Below, one piece after another: positions 12,201 through 43,650 of a stretch of 64,000 nucleotides of DNA (position 1 is its first letter; each line of letters opens with the position of its first letter). Source of the stretch: Oryzias latipes (lineage: Eukaryota > Chordata > Actinopteri > Beloniformes > Adrianichthyidae); contig NC_019866.2 of the NCBI RefSeq assembly GCF_002234675.1, positions 13,297,261-13,361,260 on the forward strand, in the 5' to 3' direction. Below the pieces are notes generated by a model. It was given only the letters and a program-made list of their open reading frames with translations. It was not told the origin of the DNA and ran no database searches. The position numbers and the translations under genes were made by a program.

Positions 12201-14235
12201 CCAATCCTACTCAATCAAAAAGCTGTCAATGTCCAGTCTACTGACTTGTTGTAGAGTTAGGAATTGTTTTCATGTGTCAATAACTGAAGAAGAGTGTTTA
12301 CCTCCACTTTTTTTGGGAGTAAAACCTATTTTTTTCAACTTACTTTTATTTGGATTTCAGAAAGAAAACCATAATGAGAAAAAAACTTCCTGAAAGCTGA
12401 ATAAGTGAGTTAATTTTTTTTTGCATTTCACACAAAAATCTAACTTATGAATCTAAAACAGGTTAATTACTAGCAGTGTCGGGTCACATTAAACCAGATT
12501 AGATTCAAGAGACCACATTAGTCTTGGGGGTTAAAATCAAATAACTGTCTTACTGATCATTTAGGTTCCACATTCCTACCTCAATAAGCCTGTCTTGTGG
12601 TCGAAGCCCGGCACGATCGGCAGGCGATCCAGGATCCAAGGAGCGGATGTATTGGCCGGGCCGGGAGCGATCACTGTGGAGGTTGAAGCCATAACCGGTT
12701 TCAGATCGGACGAGGTGGCACAGACGCGGATTGAGCTTGGATGGGTCAGTGTGGGGAAGAGACTGGACCTGGGCCTCGGAGTGAGTGTCTGCCTCCTGCG
12801 TCAGGACCAGAAAGTGTTCTTGTTTAGTTTTTCCATAAAAATGACAAATAAACAAACAAATAATCTTTTCTACAAACTGTATTACCCAACTTGATTTTTT
12901 TTGCTTGTGCTTCATTTACATTTTTTGTTTTCTGGCAATAAAATATAAATTTAAGACTTTTATTTGTAATTGTATTAAGTTAAGTCACACTTTACTGAAT
13001 AATTAACACTTTCGGCAAGAGCAATAACTCAAAATTAAATGTGAATGCAAAAAATAATGTTTTATTAAAACAAATGTACACTGCATCTATACAAACATTT
13101 ATAACACAGAAATATTAAATTACAGGGTTTACACTGGGGCAAAATAGTATTTAGTCAGCCTCCAATTGTGCAAGTTCTCTCACTTAAAGAAGTGAGGGAT
13201 AAAAAGACAAAAAAAATCCATAAAATTACATGCCGAAAGTCTGATTTTTAAAGAATCTATTTGTAGAAAGATTGTAGAAAATAAGTATTTGATCACCAAC
13301 AAACAAGTAGATTTCTGGCTCTCACAGACCTGTAACTTCTTCTGTAAGAGGATCCTCCATATCTGTATTAATGGCACATGTTTGAACTCATTATCTATAT
13401 AAAAGACACCTGTTCACAGCTTTAAACAGTCACACTCCAAACTCCACTATGGCCAAGAACAAAGAGCTGTCTAAGGACTCCAGAAACCAAATTGTTGACC
13501 TGCACCAGGCTGGGAGGACTGAATCTGCAATAGGTAAGCAGCTTGGTGTGAAGAAATCAACTGTGAGAGTAATTTTTAGGAAATGGAAGACACACAAGAC
13601 CACTGATAATCTCCCTCCATCTAGGGGTTCCCACAAGATCTCACCCTGTGGGGTCAAAATGATCACAAAAATGGTGAACTTAAATCCCAGAACCTCACAG
13701 GGGGACTTAGTGAATGACCTGCAGAGAGCTGGGACCAAAGTAACAAAAAGACTACCATCAGTAACACTCTACAGACTCAAATCCTGCAGTGCCAGACGTG
13801 TCCCCTTGCTAAAGCCAGTACATGTGCAGGCCCGTCTAAAGTTTGCTAGAGAGCATTTGGATGATTAGGAGAATGTCCTGTGGTCAGATTAAGCCAAAAT
13901 GGAACAAATTACTCATCGTGTTTGGAGCAGAAAGAATACAGAGTTGTATCCAAAGAATACCATACCTACTCTAAAGCACGGGGGTGGAAGCATCATGCTT
14001 TGAGGCTGATTTTCAGCAAAGGGAACAGGACGACTGATCCATGTAAAGGAAAGAATGAATGGGGCCGTGTATCGTACGATTTAGAGTGAAAAACCATTGA
14101 ATACTTACAGAAAACATTTGAATGCTGTCATTGCCAACTAAAGGATATAACAGTATCGACTACAGCTGTGACGGTGTCGAATTTTTCATCACCGCGGTGA
14201 TGAACCACCAGGGGGCGCGGTGTCGCGGTTAACCG

Positions 14236-32200: not shown

Positions 32201-34858
32201 GTGCATTCTAGCCTTTGTCAGGCAATCAGCTCATTTTAGGCAATGCTTTGGCTCTCCACAGGACCCAATCTAAGAGCTGCACAAGGACACACACATTTTC
32301 ACTGCTGGTGGAGGAAAAGTCCCAGAGTGCTGTTTGCACACTGGCAGAATAAACCTAAGTGAAAACACGTGTCCTTTAAAAGCAGAAAGTGGAAGTTGAG
32401 CAGTCTCAACTTTGAGATTGAGGCCGCGTGAAACCGAATCCGATCACAGAGTGGATGGAAACACATCCTGTTTTCCATGTCATCATGGAATAACTGAATA
32501 AAACAAACAAACCACACAAAGATATGTGATTTGTTTAGACTTTATCAGTATAGGATATTGGTACCAGTCAATTTTTCCCTAATACTATTAGTGCACAAAT
32601 ATGATTCTTCTGAATTTCAAGTTCCTTTTTGCACCTTCAACACATTAAAAATGCTTCCAACTATAAGTTATCTGTTAGCACACACTTGTGAAATGCACAG
32701 CTCACATGCATTAAAACCTGCATGATTCCTAATCTGAAACAGGCACAGCAGCCTGATAACATGTCTCTGAGGAGAGAATGCGTGAAGGCAGGTGACCCAC
32801 TGCCAGCCAGCGCTCCATCTGAATCCAATATCCAGCTTACCTTCTTTGCAGCCTTTGATGGCGACCTCCTGGTGGGCTTCTGCACCTGGCCGCTCTGCTT
32901 AGACACTGAGCCATTCTCTCGTTTTTTTGCGGGGGACGAAGGGGTTGATGATGGTGCTGGGGAGGGGGAGGCTTGAGGAGTGGAGGAGGTGGGAGCACTG
33001 CTCCCTAGAATGGCCATCTCCTCTGTGGCCGTGAGGCGCAAGCTGCGGAGATTTTCGTGTGTTTCGTTGTCGACCACCAGCAGCCTGGTCTCGTGGTCCA
33101 CTGCTTTGATCCGCTGCACCACCTAGGAGAAAGCAATTAAAGCAGACACAAGTTTTAAACAATAAAATAAACTCTGATGGGTTTAGAAAACCCTGAAATT
33201 TGCCTTAAGGTCCCTTTCTGATCATCCTTTGATTGATTTAAAAAAACTTCCCAGTGGTCTTTTAATTTAGGTAAAATTGGGGGGAAAAAGAGTCGTTTTC
33301 AAGGACAGTTTCTGCAGAGCGGCAGTAGTTCATTAGCAATTCACCCCTGAGTTGTGGTCCGGACTGTTGGTGTGGAGTAAGTCCACCCCCACTTCCTGTC
33401 ATCCATTTGTTTACATTCTCTGCTGCTAGCTTACAGACCCTCACAACCCCAACCTAACATTAGTGATGCAACAAAAAAAGCAAGATTGGAGCTATCCAGC
33501 TGTTCAGTTATGAACCAGATTCCAGCTCAGACAAGGAAAACAAAGACATACATGGATCTATTTGTCTGCAAGTGGATGCAGCAGAATGGAGCGGAGCAGA
33601 GAGCTTGTAGCACCTATGTCAGAAATACAATCTTTTTTCCGTCTGCTCCTGATTCACAGCAATCTGAATAAAGAAATTGTCAGAAATGTCATTTTAAGCT
33701 TATTCTTTTTTTTACATATGTCCCCATCATAAGAAAAAGGCCACAAGAACATGTTAAAAACAGCAAAAACACTATTTTTTATTAGTGTGGGCCTTTAAAT
33801 AAGAGTAGAGTTATAAGTAAGACCTGATTGACTTTTTTAAACCGGTAAGACACATACTGCAATGATATCATAACAAAGCTGCTCTCTGCATTTTTGACTT
33901 ATTTGTTGAATCGAATCTTGAGTTTTTCTTTACGTTGTCATCATTTTATAACGAACGGTTGTTTTTGCTCTGAGAAATGATCAAAATGAACATGAGGAAT
34001 GGAAAGCAGCATGTGTTTATTGGTCCTTTTTATGTTTTTGAATGTAAATAAACATATATTTTTGTACTTTTCCACCCGTTTTGTAGCAATATTAGTCTAG
34101 ACATAATCAGGCATCATTTTACCAGCTTTCATTTGATCCATAAAATGACAAGTTCTACCTGAGAGCCTGTAATGGTTCAGATTAGCTGTGGGGGAAAACT
34201 TCATGATGACAATGTCTGACAACTTGACAGTTTTTAAAATGAAACAACACAAAGCAGACAAAGCTGGAGAAACTTTTGTTGTTGTTCACAATGACAGCTT
34301 GCTGTCCAAACTGAAATGATGCCCTGGTACACACTAAAACTGACAACAAAAGATGTTTCTGAGTGAAGTTTTAATCATTTCTTTAAATCCCCTTTAAGTC
34401 ATTTAATGGATCATGACACTTAAAGTCTCAGAAAAGACACAAAACAAAAGAAAAGGATTAAAAATGTTTTTGGTGTCTGAATAACGACTATCAATCCAAA
34501 AATCTACTAGTTCCACAGGAAGCGTTATGGCATGGGGGTTGCAGTTCACATCATACCCAGCCGGTGTGACCTGTTGATGCACCTTTGCGGGCAGCTTGTC
34601 CTGTAACATAAGTTCAAATCATAAATATATGAATGCACCTCTCCAACTTGCCTGGTGGTGCGTTTCTCTCTCCACGTTCACTCCATTCACGGCCACCACT
34701 CGGTCCCCAGCCCGCAGCCCCGACGCCTCTGCGGGGGAACCTGGCTCCACTTTTCGGATGTATTGCCCACTTTTGCCCTTCTCCCCGTGCAAGTGAAATC
34801 CGTAGCCGCCCTGGCTTTTTGCCATGACGCACAGCCGCGGCTTCAGCTCCTTGGCCAT
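5694..34858 (-). CDS. nherf2: NHERF2, Na+/H+ exchange regulatory cofactor, two-PDZ scaffold (six coding exons)
   Basis: This is a PDZ scaffold of apical membranes that tethers transporters and GPCRs to ezrin and actin. The coding exons are 34858-34652, 33122-32841, 12795-12580, 6413-6260, 6073-5955 and 5858-5694, which join in frame to 380 residues. PDZ1 is about residues 6-87 (GYGF loop at 18-21, class I His at 67). PDZ2 is about 184-268 (GYGF at 197-200, His at 246). A Ser/Pro/Ala-rich linker separates them, and the ezrin-binding tail ends in FSNF (about 362-380). The residues VVQRIKAV after the first splice and the ending SNF match NHERF2 better than NHERF1. Human NHERF2 has 337 residues; the extra length is mainly in the inter-PDZ linker. 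The start is the first ATG ahead of PDZ1. Intron 1 uses a GC donor. The older symbol is slc9a3r2. Confidence 0.95.
5955..6073 (-). CDS. nherf2: nherf2 coding exon 5 (inter-domain linker)
   Basis: These 119 nt complete codon 287 as Asp and encode up to residue 326. The acceptor is TTCTACAG and the donor is GTGAGC. The translation begins [20 protein letters not shown] and contains [11 protein letters not shown], resembling the NG- and SRSDL-containing linker of NHERF2. Confidence 0.9.
6260..6413 (-). CDS. nherf2: nherf2 coding exon 4 (rest of PDZ2)
   Basis: These 154 nt encode residues 236-286 plus the first base of codon 287. The acceptor is TTCATCAG and the donor is GTGGGA. It starts [20 protein letters not shown] and includes [15 protein letters not shown], which closely matches the NHERF2 family PDZ2. 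Confidence 0.95.
8985..9050. repeat. Short repeat fragment shared with 53143-53713
   Basis: The string GCTACGTTCACAC followed by a TTCAAGAAC-type segment resembles the end of the inverted-repeat element in sstr5 intron 2. It is probably a solo or truncated end of the same family. The similarity is short, so the call is tentative. Confidence 0.3.
9163..9214. repeat. (GT)n microsatellite joined to a poly-G run
   Basis: A GT dinucleotide tract runs directly into 17 consecutive G residues. It is expected to be length-polymorphic and prone to sequencing error. The G run could form a quadruplex. Confidence 0.95.
10587..10858 (+). mobile_element. tRNA-derived SINE (family 1)
   Basis: The head has an A-box-like GTGGTGCAACGGTAGGG and a B-box GTTCGATTCCC, which are internal RNA polymerase III promoter motifs. 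The tail ends with AAAGCGCTTTGG and AGCGCTATATAAG, the L2-type 3' end common to fish SINEs. It inserts into nherf2 intron 3 opposite to the gene. Confidence 0.8.
11166..11624. mobile_element. Non-autonomous inverted-repeat DNA element
   Basis: The left end GTTTCCACTGAGTGGTCCGG is matched by an inverted right end, GTTTCCACTGAGCAGTACGG, followed by CAGT-rich sequence. The 459-bp interior has no transposase. This terminus type is common in fish non-autonomous elements, but I cannot assign the superfamily from sequence alone. Confidence 0.7.
12580..12795 (-). CDS. nherf2: nherf2 coding exon 3 (first part of PDZ2)
   Basis: These 216 nt encode residues 164-235. The acceptor is TGACGCAG and the donor is GTAGGA, both in phase 0. 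It carries [20 protein letters not shown] with the PDZ2 carboxylate-binding loop, then [19 protein letters not shown], and ends at DRLIE. Confidence 0.94.
13449..14087 (+). pseudogene. Tc1-like transposase remnant
   Basis: The first 139 codons (13449-13868) encode the N-terminal helix-turn-helix region ([28 protein letters not shown]) and reach the approach to the catalytic domain. A stop follows, then recognisable downstream pieces with more stops. The first catalytic Asp survives in VLWSD, but a stop codon follows it immediately. The segments carrying the second Asp and the Glu of the DDE triad are missing, so it cannot encode an active transposase. Confidence 0.88.
14161..15240. mobile_element. 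hAT-type non-autonomous element nested in the Tc1 copy
   Basis: The ends read TACAGCTGTGACG and, in reverse, TAGGGCTGTGACG. They are flanked by a perfect 8-bp direct repeat GTATCGAC (14153-14160 and 15241-15248), the hallmark of hAT insertion. Subterminal ATCACCGCGGTGATG palindromes lie near both ends. The 1080-bp body encodes no transposase and holds two related blocks, each starting with a poly-C run (14236-14256 and about 14778-14791) followed by ACACAAAATC and GGCGGCCG. Confidence 0.9.
15570..15928 (-). mobile_element. tRNA-derived SINE (family 2), minus orientation
   Basis: Read on the minus strand, it begins with a tRNA-like head (CACGGTGGGGCAGTGGTTAG) and continues into the body motif GGAGTTTGCATGTTCTCC. 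It ends with the segment matching GGATGGGCTCCGGCAG. The copy at 20549-20846 is the same family in the opposite orientation. Confidence 0.75.
16986..17552 (+). mobile_element. TTAA-flanked non-autonomous element, copy A
   Basis: It has inverted ends of the type AGGTCCAACTCCAAT / ATTAGAGTGGGTCTT. The right flank is TTAA and the left flank is a mutated TTCA. An internal ATG at 17207 starts a short frame reading [16 protein letters not shown], also found in copy C at 33488-33545. TTAA target sites suggest the piggyBac or Kolobok superfamily; which one is not settled. Confidence 0.75.
18909..19242 (+). mobile_element. TTAA-flanked non-autonomous element, copy B (internally deleted)
   Basis: TTAA lies at both borders (18909-18912 and 19239-19242). 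The inverted ends are AGTCCCACTCCAAT and ATTGGAGTGGATCT. Compared with copies A and C, it lacks the central segment that carries the short coding-like frame. Confidence 0.8.
20549..20846 (+). mobile_element. tRNA-derived SINE (family 2), plus orientation
   Basis: The head contains GTAGTGTAGTGGTTAGCCG (A-box region) and GGGTTGAATCCC (B-box). The body has CTTCCTCCCACAGTCCAAAA and CATAGGTTAACTAGTTA. The 3' end reads CTGGAATAGGCTCCAGCA and closes with a short ATGG-repeat tail. A related 3' fragment is visible near 21650-21715. Confidence 0.8.
23737..23859. mobile_element. 123-bp hAT MITE with perfect 8-bp duplication
   Basis: The inverted ends CAGTGGTCCCAAACC and GGTTTGGGACCACTG are perfect over 15 bp. 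Direct repeats TCTAGAGA flank both sides (23729-23736 and 23860-23867). This is about as small as a hAT derivative can be, being little more than its two ends. Confidence 0.88.
24957..25404. mobile_element. MITE with TGTCCGAATTCCCA-type inverted ends
   Basis: The left end is TGTCTGAATTCCCAGTCTAAC and the reversed right end is TGTCCGAATTCCCACCCTAAC. Subterminal ATAGTGC motifs repeat in inverted order. The 448-bp body is non-coding. I cannot assign the superfamily. Confidence 0.75.
30960..31035. repeat. Interspersed repeat fragment shared with 655-725
   Basis: The string TTCCAAACAGGAAGTACC followed by AAAGCCAAAAATC and TAGACTTCC occurs here and, inverted, at about 655-725. The copies are diverged and I do not recognise the parent family. 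Confidence 0.5.
32841..33122 (-). CDS. nherf2: nherf2 coding exon 2 (end of PDZ1, linker)
   Basis: These 282 nt encode residues 70-163. The acceptor is TCCTAG and the donor is GTAAGC. The exon starts [18 protein letters not shown], which closes PDZ1. It continues with a low-complexity Ser/Thr/Pro/Ala linker and a basic patch ([13 protein letters not shown]). The linker is likely disordered and carries several possible phosphosites. Confidence 0.93.
33123..34651 (-). other. nherf2: nherf2 intron 1 (GC-AG)
   Basis: The intron begins GCAAGT and ends CCTAG. The GC donor keeps an otherwise perfect consensus (CAG before, AAGT after), as is usual for functional GC-AG introns. The intron contains one TTAA-flanked element (33205-33798). 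Nothing else in it is recognisable. Confidence 0.8.
33205..33798 (+). mobile_element. TTAA-flanked non-autonomous element, copy C
   Basis: TTAA lies at both borders (33205-33208 and 33795-33798). The body aligns by eye with copy A throughout, including a frame reading [14 protein letters not shown] around 33488-33545. It sits in nherf2 intron 1, opposite to the gene. Confidence 0.75.
34652..34858 (-). CDS. nherf2: nherf2 coding exon 1 (start codon, most of PDZ1)
   Basis: These 207 nt encode residues 1-69, beginning [10 protein letters not shown] and ending at ETHHQ. The ATG is at 34858-34856. A frame open upstream to 34876 has only a TTG, so the ATG is preferred. The donor is CAG followed by GCAAGT at 34651, a GC donor that matches the expanded consensus of U2-type GC-AG introns. 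The exon ends in phase 0. Confidence 0.93.
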
Positions 34859-39000: not shown

Positions 39001-39282
39001 AAAGATTACGTTTCAAAAATCTAAACTAAGTAGCCGTCCATTCACTACGTAACATAATTTTTGTACCTGGCTTCTAAGTGTTAAATTCAATAGCGTATGT
39101 CGAAAGTATGTGAAAAAATGAGCACAAATAAGCACAAACTTTGCTTTCATGACAACAGCACGAAGAAAACTAGAAATTTGTGAAAATAAGACGATTTTTT
39201 TAAAATTTGGTCATTATGATCAGGTAACAACAAAAATTGCACAAGGAATAGACAAACACAGTTGGAAACCACTCAACAAGGT

Positions 39283-42156
39283 TTAGAAACGTGTCGATTT
39301 TCTTGATTTACCATTGTACTGTGAATCACTTTCTTGAAGTAGCCCCCAAATGTAGTCCCCCATCATGTTTTCATTATACTGTCCTTGGTAACGACGTTCA
39401 AGGTCCAATATATCTTGATGAAAGCGCTCTCCTTGCTCGTCAGAGTAAGCTCCCATGTTCTCCTTGAATTTGTCGAGATGCGAATCAAGGATTTGGACTT
39501 TCAGAGACATTCTGCATCCCATTTTGGCGTAATTCTTTATGAGAGTCTGCACCAACTCCACATAGTTTTCAGCTTTGTGATTTCCTAGGAAGCCATGAAC
39601 AACTGCAACGAAACTGCTCCAAGCCGCTCTCTCCGTCTTCTTCAACATCTTTGCGAAATCCTCACATTCTATGATCTTCTTGATCTGTGGTCCGACGAAG
39701 ATACCAGCCCTGACCTTAGCCTCGGACAGTTTTGGAAAAAGATCTTGGAGGTATTTAAATGCTGCTGACTCCTTGTCAAGAGCAGTGACAAATTGGTTAA
39801 GGAGGCCTAACTTGATGTGCAGCGGTGGCATAAGCGCTTTATGAGGTTCTTCACATTGCTCTTCCCAACAGAAAACTCGGTGGCCAGTCCTTTTTGCAAT
39901 AATGCGCCTTAGTGTCACGGCTGTCCCAGGGACAGAGGAAACAAGGAAATTTCGTGAAACCTCCTTGAAGACCCATGAGGAATGATACCATTTTGATGTC
40001 ACCGATGACCTCCCATCCATAGTCGTCACACTTTAATGCATTCAGCAACATCTTGACACTGGTGTAGTCCTCTTTGAGATGCACAGAGTGGGCCATCGGG
40101 AGAGACGGATAGTTGTTTCCATTGTGAAGCATCAAGGCTATGAGGCTCTGGGATGAACTGTCTATGAATAGGCCCCATTCAATAGGATTACGTGTGATAC
40201 CTATAGCCTGGAATAGGCTCCGTGCACGTAACTAAGGAGTTCTACTTCCACCGCCTTGAGTGTGAGGCCGACCATTTCCGGTTTGCGACTTCTATAGCAG
40301 CGACACGGCAGATTTTGTTTGCGAAAGATGGCATATTTCACCCGTTGTCTGCAAGGTCTCCCGAAAATCGACGTGAACGACATCTACAGGATTGTCGACC
40401 AGTGCGTGGTTACATGGGCAAAATATCGTGTCGAAAAAATATAGTGTCGAAAATACCGGAAGGGAAATGTGTCCCGTTGTAAACAAACCTTTGCTGTGAC
40501 ATATATTTATGCAGCAGCTCGGTAATATACGAGGCGATCTTCCAAACGTGCTTTTATTAATGTTATGAATATTGTGAAGTGCATGTTCGCTCATCATTTT
40601 ATATTTAATCCTAGTGGTCAGTGCTTTTTTTGTGGAAGAAGTACGGAGCTGGAAGAAGAACCCAGTATTAGGATAGGCTAACAACATTAGCCTTTTGATG
40701 GACAAAAAATCCAGGACAAACCATGTGGGAAACGCTGCAATCTGCATCCTGGCTGCACGTAAATGTCTGGGAATAACATCAGCCTTTATTTTGTCGGGGC
40801 ACAACTGGAAACACAGTTCCGTGTGATTTTTTGAACAGTTTCTAAGGACTGAGCGGCATTTCTGCCCGGAAAAGCTCACACACTGTATGCTCTGCTCTAT
40901 CCTCGCGAGTCCGGCAGCCGCTAACCCAGAGCGGCGGTTCGGCTCGCAGTCCGAATTCTCACACATAACAAAACAACAAAACGCACACGTAACAAAGCAC
41001 CCTCCCCTCAAACACATTAATAAATCCAGCTGCTCTGCTCAGAGAGGTTCACTCGGTCCACTGGCACCGGAGCCCGAATGCAGAGCTCGGTTGATGCCGG
41101 GTCCAGACGTCAGTGGGCACGGATCCCCCCCGCATCTCCCTCGTGAGGGGTGAAAGAGAGGGGAGAGCCAGCGGGGCGAGAACAGAGCGGCTGGTTGGTC
41201 CCGTATGCGCTCCAAAGCTTTCTCTCAGCGAAACACCGTCTATGCATGACGTAAACCAGAGCAGTAGTGACACACGATCGGAATGACCGTTTACATGAAC
41301 AACGATCGGTATAACCCAGCTATCTCGATCGGAAAGAAATTTTGATCCGAACGAGTCTGACCGGGGCAGAGTATTCCGAACGGTGTGTTTACATGACGCA
41401 TGTTCTTTCCGATTGCTGCAAATACGAAACACGACTCGTCTTGCTTGGGGCGGTCCTCCCGCCGTGTTCACCATCCATTCGGCTCTCACCGACACATATA
41501 CTGGAAAGCTATGAAAGCTTTTAGTACTGTTGTACTTTGACAAATTCGCACACGGGTACACAACAATGTTGTGATGTCTTTGTCATGCGTTGAAACAGCA
41601 AACGCCTGTCTTTTACCCGAAATCCCCTCCTATTTACTCAAAACTAGCAACTCAACAAAACTCCCCACAACAATAACACGACCAACAGGAAGTTGTCGGC
41701 CTTACACTCGAAACAAGGAAGTTAACCGGAAGTTCTATCGTACATCGTTGCAGAAGCACAGCCCATCACGGTGACTGAAGAAGTTTGAGAATATTTGATG
41801 CCGCTTCCTCTGATCCGTGACATGTACACTATCATCAACCAAGTTCCACTGTTTGAGCCTGGATATCAGAAGCTCAGAATTCGATTTCGTAAGCCCGAGG
41901 TCTCTAATTAAATCGTTCACGTCTTTCTGGTTAGGGAAGCTTTCTCTCTCCAACTTCATCTGCGGAGTCGTAGTCCATCTCTCCAGTATCTGCCTCACTA
42001 TCTGACTTGCTGCTGTCTCCTGAAGATGGCCGATGCTGCCCAGGAGGAGTCTGAACAGGCAGATCGGGGCTGTGTGGTACTGTCTCTTGTCTTTAGGAAT
42101 TGTCCGCACACATAGCAGAATGAATCAGCTGGATGCAAACAACCTCTTGATGCCAT
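39283..42156 (-). pseudogene. Decayed transposon-like gene, family unassigned, interrupted and frameshifted
   Basis: Read on the minus strand, it starts at ATG 42156 with MASRGCLHPADSFCYVCGQF (a CxxC motif). An internal deletion and frame shifts follow, then NQKDVNDLIRDLGLTKSNSE and SRLKQWNLVDDSVHVTDQ. A 1.5-kb insertion (about 40225-41747) splits it. It resumes with MAHSVHLKEDYTS, GGFTKFPCFLCPWDSRDTK (CxxC), two more frame shifts, and a 248-codon block with MPPLHIKLGL, SDEQGERFHQDILDLERRYQ and the stop at 39283. I recall closely similar multicopy proteins from arthropods and other animals, which suggests a mobile family, but I cannot name the superfamily. It is broken here. A strong heat-shock-type promoter lies directly upstream. 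Confidence 0.75.
40225..41747. mobile_element. Inverted-repeat element inserted in the transposon-like gene
   Basis: The ends are imperfect inverted copies that share GAGTGTGAGGCCGAC on the left and GAGTGTAAGGCCGAC in reverse on the right. Host coding sequence stops at CNDV on one side and resumes near LFQAIGI on the other, which locates the insertion. The middle (about 40880-41220) is GC- and CpG-rich. Several short frames are open here, but none shows a known domain. Borders are accurate to about 20 bp. Confidence 0.65.
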
Positions 42157-42245
42157 ATCAAATAAATAACTTCTCTTCAACTAAGAATCGTTATCCTTTC
42201 AGTCAGCAATAACACGAATTGGAATCTTGGTTCGAGACACCTGTG

Positions 42246-42253
42246 CTTTTATA
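42246..42253 (-). promoter_or_regulatory. TATA box of the transposon-like gene
   Basis: On the minus strand this reads TATAAAAG. It lies 18 bp from the near end of the heat-shock-element array and about 90 bp upstream of the ATG at 42156. That predicts a transcription start near 42220 and a 5' UTR of about 65 nt. Confidence 0.75.
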
Positions 42254-42271
42254 CTTGTATAGCTACTTTTG

Positions 42272-42364
42272 GAACGTTCGAGAACGTTCTAGAAATTTCT
42301 GAGAGTTTTTCGAAAGTTCTGGAAGTTTCTTGAACGTTCTAGAGTGTTCAGGAGAATTGCAGAA
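42272..42364 (-). promoter_or_regulatory. Very long heat-shock element array
   Basis: GAA and TTC triplets alternate every 5 bp in strict register across 93 bp. GAA falls at 42272, 42282, 42292, 42312, 42322, 42332 and 42362. TTC falls at 42277, 42287, 42297, 42317, 42327, 42337 and 42347. Only five of 19 positions are degenerate (42302, 42307, 42342, 42352, 42357). This is the binding pattern of trimeric HSF (nGAAnnTTCn), and most known elements have three to six units. Confidence 0.85.
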
Positions 42365-42428
42365 ACATATGTACAACTAGCAGTTAAGGGATATTCTAGG
42401 AGGAAGCTCGGGATTGAAAGCAAATCGA

Positions 42429-42441
42429 GAATTTTCTCGAA
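42429..42441 (-). promoter_or_regulatory. Second, separate heat-shock element
   Basis: GAATTTTCTCGAA is a perfect three-unit GAA-TTC-GAA element, out of register with the main array and 65 bp further upstream of the transposon-like gene. Confidence 0.6.
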
Positions 42442-43650
42442 GACACGCGATTTTCAAAATGTCACTGTCCCCGTCAGAGAAGCAAAGTTTTTCTGGAATA
42501 ACAGCGATTTCCTTTCTGTTCTAGACATAGAGGTTTAGGAAAACACACTTTCAACCCAGGAACAGAACAAAAGTGAAAATTTGTTACATAGTGTTATTAA
42601 TATGAGACTAATCAACTTGAGGCAGCCTGTGACTGCAGCCTGAGGAGTAAGCTGCATGTGATTTAAAGAGTGACAGCTGGAAAATGTCAGCTGTGGCGAT
42701 GCTGCAGCCATTTGGATGTCAGTCACTTGTTGGCGTGTTATTCTTAGAGATGCGCAGGGATGGGATTTATTCAAGTGCACTGATGGAGGAAGGAATTAAA
42801 CACTTTTCTTTGTAAGAGGACCCGGGATAAGAGAATGTCTAAAGTTAAAAGTAACCGACAGCCTAACTCGACAAAGAACTCAAATGATATCCAAAACAGC
42901 CCAAACTCTGGGGTTGGATGTTCATTTTGCAGTAGACCATCGCAAAAGCTTAGTAATGCATCTTAAATTCAACAATAATAATTTCAATAATCCTGAATAT
43001 ACTCCAAATTTTAGACTTAAAAAAAACGTTTGAGCCATTTACCAACGAGTTACAATAAAAACAACATATTTTTACACAGCAATCATGAGTTTTCATTTTG
43101 GAAATCACACCAGCATGTGGTCCTGGCTAAATTTATTAAGCTGCCATGTCTCTGATGTGTTCCAAATCAAAATTGTGACATTTTTTGAAGTCTTGAGCTT
43201 TTAGTTGGAATTAGAAACGTCTGGCTTTGACACACATATTGATGAATTTCTTGGAATGAAAGAATAATAACTGGTGCTCTTCATATTCGGCTAACTTTAC
43301 GCTCCTTTCTGACTTCCATTTTTACTTTAGGGAAAATAAAAATTTCGTTTAAAAAAAACCTCATAATACATGAGTAAAAAAAAGGTGGAATGAGATAAAA
43401 GGCTGTTTTTTGTTTGTAATCCCCCTCTATCAGTGTTTTTGTTTTTTTATTTTTTTATCTTTCCAGACATTGCTTTTGTATTCCTGCTTAAAACATTTTA
43501 TAAAAAAGGGTACAGTTCACCCAGTAGGGAGGGGACGTTGTTAGTCAAGCAAGGTAATCTCCATTAACTCCCATGTTTAGCAGTCCAACATTCTAACAGA
43601 AATAAGCATATATCAGTCAGACAACTCATGCAGTAAATATATTTATTTTC

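Follow-up and report, generated by a model that had tools for sequence, protein, structure and literature searches.

The window analysed here is a stretch of 64,000 nucleotides from medaka (Oryzias latipes; C8:13297261-13361260) and contains, on its minus strand, a DNA transposon of the Chapaev3 type (39043..42593; 3,551 bp with its nested insertion) with a long array of heat-shock elements (HSEs) ahead of its transposase gene. The array covers 93 bp (42272..42364; no strand assigned) and is built of 19 in-register GAA/TTC units in 5-bp steps, 14 of which are perfect; 51 of the 57 triplet letters agree with GAA/TTC. Read along the minus strand, the element starts with its 5' terminal inverted repeat (TIR) from 42593. 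There follow a separate perfect three-unit HSE (GAATTTTCTCGAA, 42429..42441, no strand assigned), which lies within this TIR and does not keep the register of the array, then the 19-unit array, 18 bp, the TATA box TATAAAAG (42246..42253), the motif CCAATTC (42216..42222) and an ATG at 42156, 89 nt past the TATA box. A promoter for heat-shock factor (HSF) is recognized by a run of at least three inverted nGAAn units, contiguous and close to a core promoter; this element has 19, at 18 bp from TATAAAAG. A first-pass annotation had described both HSE groups with these unit counts, the perfect same-strand TATA box 18 bp from the array and a transposon-like ATG about 90 bp downstream, and all of these were recovered. 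Its limits, 42246-42441, hold as the span from TATA box to three-unit HSE but not for the array itself, which is the shorter interval given above.

That annotation had further held the array to be hard to explain by chance and far longer than usual HSEs, and both statements stand. No 19-unit stretch in 200 first-order Markov sequences modelled on the window had more than 6 perfect units, against 14 in the array. When the array was cut into nine decamers in a 10-bp register, the triplet columns carried 1.0-2.0 bits and the spacer columns 0.1-0.65 bits. With informative triplets and free spacers, the array is not a set of simple tandem copies of one 10-bp unit, and the pattern instead resembles sites for a protein. 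Counting both strands and the promoter copy, the window has 9 occurrences of the octamer TATAAAAG, which gives a chance of about 0.3% for a right-strand match within 40 bp. From its sequence in the window and in other copies, we take CCAATTC to be initiator-like by its consensus, with a putative start site at the A at 42220 (minus strand). In the same genome, the promoters of four hsp70 genes on C8 likewise have an HSE followed by a TATA box, but with 4 units (3 perfect) at 26 bp from TATAAAG, whereas the element has 19 units at 18 bp. Of the nine HSP70-family loci scanned (L037-L045, with 1.5 kb flanks), these four alone had an array scoring 9 or more, and none was found at L041-L045.

The array belongs to the element. 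We searched one genome (734,051,031 bases in 25 contigs; a gene of the window is 89% identical to a protein of Oryzias melastigma, its best named match by identity), in which the promoter query gave 10 matches at 9 loci, all of them element copies; capture of the array from a host heat-shock gene promoter was rejected on the same result. The promoter query and the protein search together give at least 15 copies or fragments. The whole array is present in five copies (the window copy at C8:13339532, one at C10:23880845 and three on C22, named C22a, C22b and C22c, with arrays at C22:14900680, C22:23111794 and C22:28644822) and a cut array in two more, C21:15.73M (truncated) and C2 (internal deletion). 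Two deletion derivatives with the same junction, on C1 and at C21:18.14M (C21b), have the 5' terminus without the array, and six copies (two each on C17 and C16, one each on C12 and C19) have no 5' sequence at all. The array is thus found in 7 of 7 copies that retain sequence from the promoter stretch, at seven loci on five chromosomes. The first-pass annotation had named absence of the array from other copies, or its being a local simple repeat, as grounds for dropping the promoter claim, and neither holds. In alignment register, the five whole arrays have 14, 15, 14, 14 and 14 perfect units of 19, and the same four positions are imperfect in all of them; scanned locally and by itself, C22c ends at 16 units, 13 perfect. 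Its presence in all seven copies, together with the shared imperfect positions, indicates that the array was already in the founder and is ancestral to these copies of the element. The core promoter is also shared: TATAAAAG is intact in 4 of the 6 copies that retain the stretch, with one change in each of the other two, and CCAATTC is found in 3 of 6. Of 5 copies, 4 have ATG as start codon and C22a has GTG; C22b and C2, where the region is gone, were excluded.

The array lies inside the TIRs of the element (TIR ends CACTACGTAACA / CACTATGTAACA). Both TIRs are degenerate (5' TIR, 42415..42593; 3' TIR, 39043..39202; minus strand) and were delimited by gapped alignment of the ends, which scored 90.5 against a null mean of 49.5, a value reached by none of 1000 Markov nulls and none of 1000 random pairs of real DNA; the ends 39043 and 42593 had been picked after a scan, before this test. 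An ungapped 18-bp scan in which both ends were required to begin with CACTA was equalled by 2 of 300 nulls. Sister copies with identical end positions give independent support for the termini: the 5' end is common to C22a, C22b, C2, C21b and C1, and the 3' end to C10, C21, C1, C21b and C12. The window ends are CACTACG/CACTATG, and copy C1 reads CACTATG...CATAGTG. A TTA target duplication is present in C1 and C21b (A-TTA / element / TTA-T). The window target site is imperfect, with A-TAA next to the 5' end and AAT next to the 3' end. No TTA duplication was seen in C22a and C22b; C10 and C21 have lost their 5' end by truncation, and that of C22c is degraded.

Genome-wide, with both strands counted, the exact 5-unit HSE pattern matched 53 times and a reversed control 8 times; 20 of the 53 are in the element family (6 of the 19 loci), 20 in one cluster on C12 and 13 elsewhere. 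A 7-unit pattern with at most two mismatches matched 202 times, against 35 for its control, and among the matches listed, which were ordered by mismatches, the four with zero mismatches are all in the element family. Other HSE-like sequences were noted in passing. The C12 locus L023 (C12:438000-443500) has repetitive GAAGGTTCTT-type units overlapping a 627-aa open frame, which are HSE-like and possibly coding. Further tandem arrays of near-HSE decamers lie at C14:28247974-28248828, C9:827106-828104 and C1:1592367-1592599, and a perfect 6-unit HSE unlinked to the element lies at C3:19215581-19215613 (L021).

The gene downstream of the promoter is a broken transposase gene. Its frame starts at the ATG (42085..42156, minus strand; MASRGC...), a native start codon whose position is common to the family proteins P0002 and P0021 by tblastn, and also to P0005 and P0123. 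The tblastn pieces of the window copy are 42156-42085, 42080-41741, 40216-39860 and 39861-39286. Between the first piece and the second (41741..42080, minus strand), about 103 codons are gone, corresponding to residues 25-127 of P0123. The catalytic part (39286..40216, minus strand; open reading frame 39283-40032) carries a frameshift near 39860. An insertion of 1.5 kb (40217..41740, no strand assigned), recognized as a gap between tblastn pieces and by an inverted repeat at its ends, splits the gene. With the deletion, the insertion and the frameshift, the window copy is a dead relic. Among the genome matches listed (at least 48 pieces, from a protein search that scored the best candidates only), none is a complete open transposase frame; the best has 273 residues with four stops. 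The nested insertion holds an open reading frame with a weak THAP match below the cut-off, and at L013 (C22:28.64M) stretches 69-75% similar to this insertion lie just outside the element copy.

Protein matches place the reading frame that follows the ATG in a large animal-wide transposase family: 824 proteins were found at E <= 0.001 with the 249-aa open reading frame and 1,900 with a 434-aa relative. Named sources among the best 120 per search include sturgeon, characins, sucker, lamprey, frogs, a tunicate and crustaceans, as well as horseshoe crab, pseudoscorpion, insects and the sponge Oopsacas. The C-terminal part of the window protein is 80% identical to P0123. Searches of viral and genome contig collections returned no relatives with DNA context, and the N-terminal extensions of database proteins were uninformative about the promoter. 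The Pfam cut-off was reached by none of 13 proteins checked, and a PDB sequence search with the transposase gave no convincing match. In a set of 48 family proteins (A2), zf-AD was the weak Pfam match seen most often, with E <= 1 in 18 proteins and a best value of 0.00049. The transposase was placed by fold comparison alone, in which the model appears RAG1/Transib-like, with residues 1-173 barely covered.

The first-pass annotation had left the family unnamed. The termini, the TTA duplication in two sister copies, protein motifs and the modelled RAG1/Transib-like fold place the element in the Chapaev3 group of the CMC supergroup, near Merrow and Garfield. The target duplications of C1 and C21b fit the TWA type of Chapaev3, with A before and T after, and the modelled fold is that of an RNase-H-like DDE transposase. 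P0123 has the three Chapaev3 motifs, C(2)C (C336/C339), LH (L384-H385) and H(4)H (H493/H498), whose residues are invariant or almost so in set A2; in the window copy, the first of the two histidines of H(4)H is replaced by Q. A simple assignment to CACTA/EnSpm or Transib was considered and rejected, since the TTA duplications and motifs point to Chapaev3 instead. Helitrons encode a Rep-helicase protein and have no TIRs, and a Helitron with HSEs is ruled out by the DDE fold and the TIRs found here. As described in the available text on Merrow and Garfield, those elements share with the medaka element the 5'-CAC...GTG-3' termini, duplication of a TTA target flanked by A and T (here in C1 and C21b), the three protein motifs C(2)C, LH and H(4)H, and matches in lamprey, sturgeon and insects (PMC4079192). 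The Merrow gene is given there as two exons of 78 and 484 aa (PMC4079192); relatives of 562 and 484 aa would fit these sizes, and the window copy is deleted across the exon junction.

Taken together, the array is likely to activate, from upstream, the promoter native to this cut-and-paste transposon, and probable HSF-driven transcription is the best reading of it. An HSF trimer reads three neighbouring units, and the 19 units would leave room for about six trimers. Active host HSF trimers would bind the array side by side, several together, and drive RNA polymerase II from the adjoining TATA box and initiator. The predicted transcript would have about 64 nt of leader at its 5' end and would encode a transposase of about 560 residues with a RAG1/Transib-type DDE fold, which would cut the element at its CACTA...TAGTG ends and reinsert it at TTA sites. 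The length of the array and the hsp70-like distance to TATA box and initiator predict strong HSF-dependent transcription of the transposase. The anatomy, the array in every copy found that retains the region, the family placement and the broken condition of the copies found are observed; HSF binding, induction by heat or other stress, the start site and past transposition under stress are inferred from sequence.

Several results weigh against this reading. Among the copies, departures from the majority letter are about as frequent in the triplets (3.3%, 12/359) as in the spacers (4.4%, 10/228) and the upstream flank (4.4%, 57/1306), so that nothing seems to maintain the array in present copies. 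No selection on the array after the burst was seen in this comparison, which suggests that the copies decayed neutrally since insertion, with no sign that the host preserves the arrays. Furthermore, the window copy and the C10 copy (L009, C10:23876500-23882500) form one collinear match across the same internal coding deletion (window 41741-42156); this points to one broken parent moved in trans, and the copies are not fully independent witnesses. Judged from the shared deletion, C8 and C10 are a non-autonomous line that moved in trans with the whole promoter and its HSE array. The two deletion derivatives L035 (C21:18143491) and L036 (C1:21868563) share an internal deletion that joins element position 129 to 811 and have separate TTA duplications and unlike flanks. 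By their sequences they represent a promoterless non-autonomous line, likewise moved in trans, and show that movement without the promoter is possible. As to the termini, the ungapped 18-bp TIR-end score is not significant (80.5% of 200 nulls were equally good), and in the TIR control for copy C1, 1 of 1000 control pairs was equally good.

The array is part of the element by copy alignment, and the more probable of the alternatives concerns which signal it answers to. The promoter might serve HSFs whose germ-line activity needs no heat, such as HSF1 and HSF2 in meiosis; the array would then give transcription in the germ line, where transposition is inherited, with heat inducibility as a side effect. 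A transposon profits from germ-line activity only. We regard this alternative as unlikely. An alternating array would hardly suit HSF5, whose reported motif is a single GAA. A less probable alternative, which we doubt, is that the array provides subterminal sites for the transposase itself, or palindromes for synapsis, and resembles HSEs by coincidence. Repeated subterminal sites are frequent in DNA transposons, and the array begins about 230 bp from the 5' terminus with units that make up overlapping inverted repeats. However, the 3' end of the element has no perfect three-unit counterpart, the array adjoins TATA box and initiator on the coding side, and its conserved letters are alternating GAA/TTC triplets with free spacers; C1 and C21b, moreover, acquired their own target duplications though they lack the array. 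A local simple repeat or chance array is very improbable and was rejected, for although tandem near-HSE arrays exist elsewhere in the genome (C12:439604-441588, C3:1964950), this one lies within the element at seven loci with the same imperfect positions in its five whole copies, and the Markov sequences and octamer statistics exclude chance.

Downstream of the element lies a gene that we take, by its motif, to be NHERF2-like; its first coding exon is about 4 kb away on the same strand. The position and strand suggest that this gene could have in the array a distal promoter responsive to stress. PDZ-like exons were noted on the minus strand at 34600-34807 and 12560-12696, with a further NHERF2-like piece at 32661-33122, and the translation of 13386-13868, inspected by eye, looks like a fragment of a Tc1-like transposase. 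That stress activates transposons is a frequent proposal, but to our knowledge it has seldom been linked to a defined promoter in vertebrates. The promoter described here has a design that can be read from its sequence, occurs at several loci of one genome and is much longer than the HSEs of host hsp70 genes, which makes heat-shock awakening of vertebrate transposons directly testable. HSF is conserved across animals, so that an HSE-array promoter would suit an element group that crosses species, and the Chapaev3 group is noted for horizontal transfer among animals. The wider proposal, that the HSE-array promoter is a shared and selected trait of this Chapaev3 lineage, is speculative, and we consider it improbable at present. 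On that proposal, the transposon would enter a new host with a promoter readable by almost any animal HSF, would fire under stress, and would leave HSF-responsive promoters able to rewire neighbouring genes, in the window the NHERF2-like gene.

Among the top-ranked titles and abstracts, with partial coverage of the literature and one query that was too broad, none reports an HSE promoter for Chapaev elements or for a fish DNA transposon; the statement in the first-pass annotation that no description was known in fish is not contradicted. For Merrow and Garfield an HSE array is undescribed, the words 'promoter' and 'heat' being absent from the main text of the paper (PMC4079192). A close precedent outside fish is Helitron1_CE of C. 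elegans, also a DNA transposon with many HSEs in its own transposase promoter; according to the available text it has 14 HSEs, is bound by HSF-1 and is heat-induced (PMC6927752). It differs in being a rolling-circle element with a Rep-helicase, whereas the medaka element has TIRs and a DDE transposase, and HSE enrichment in Helitrons is reported there for Caenorhabditis only (PMC6927752). In Cryptococcus, TCN12 and TCN3 are likewise heat-stimulated and have putative HSEs, but they are long terminal repeat (LTR) retrotransposons with one or two of them; for the CMC elements, the accessible part of that paper does not mention HSEs (PMC12810828). The Arabidopsis copia element ONSEN is also mobile and has an HSF-bound, heat-responsive promoter element, but is an LTR retrotransposon with the element nTTCnnGAAn, and a comparably long array is not mentioned in the text available (PMC3907296). 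The medaka array is therefore unusual, yet the strategy has precedents in a worm transposon, Helitron1_CE, and a plant transposon, ONSEN.
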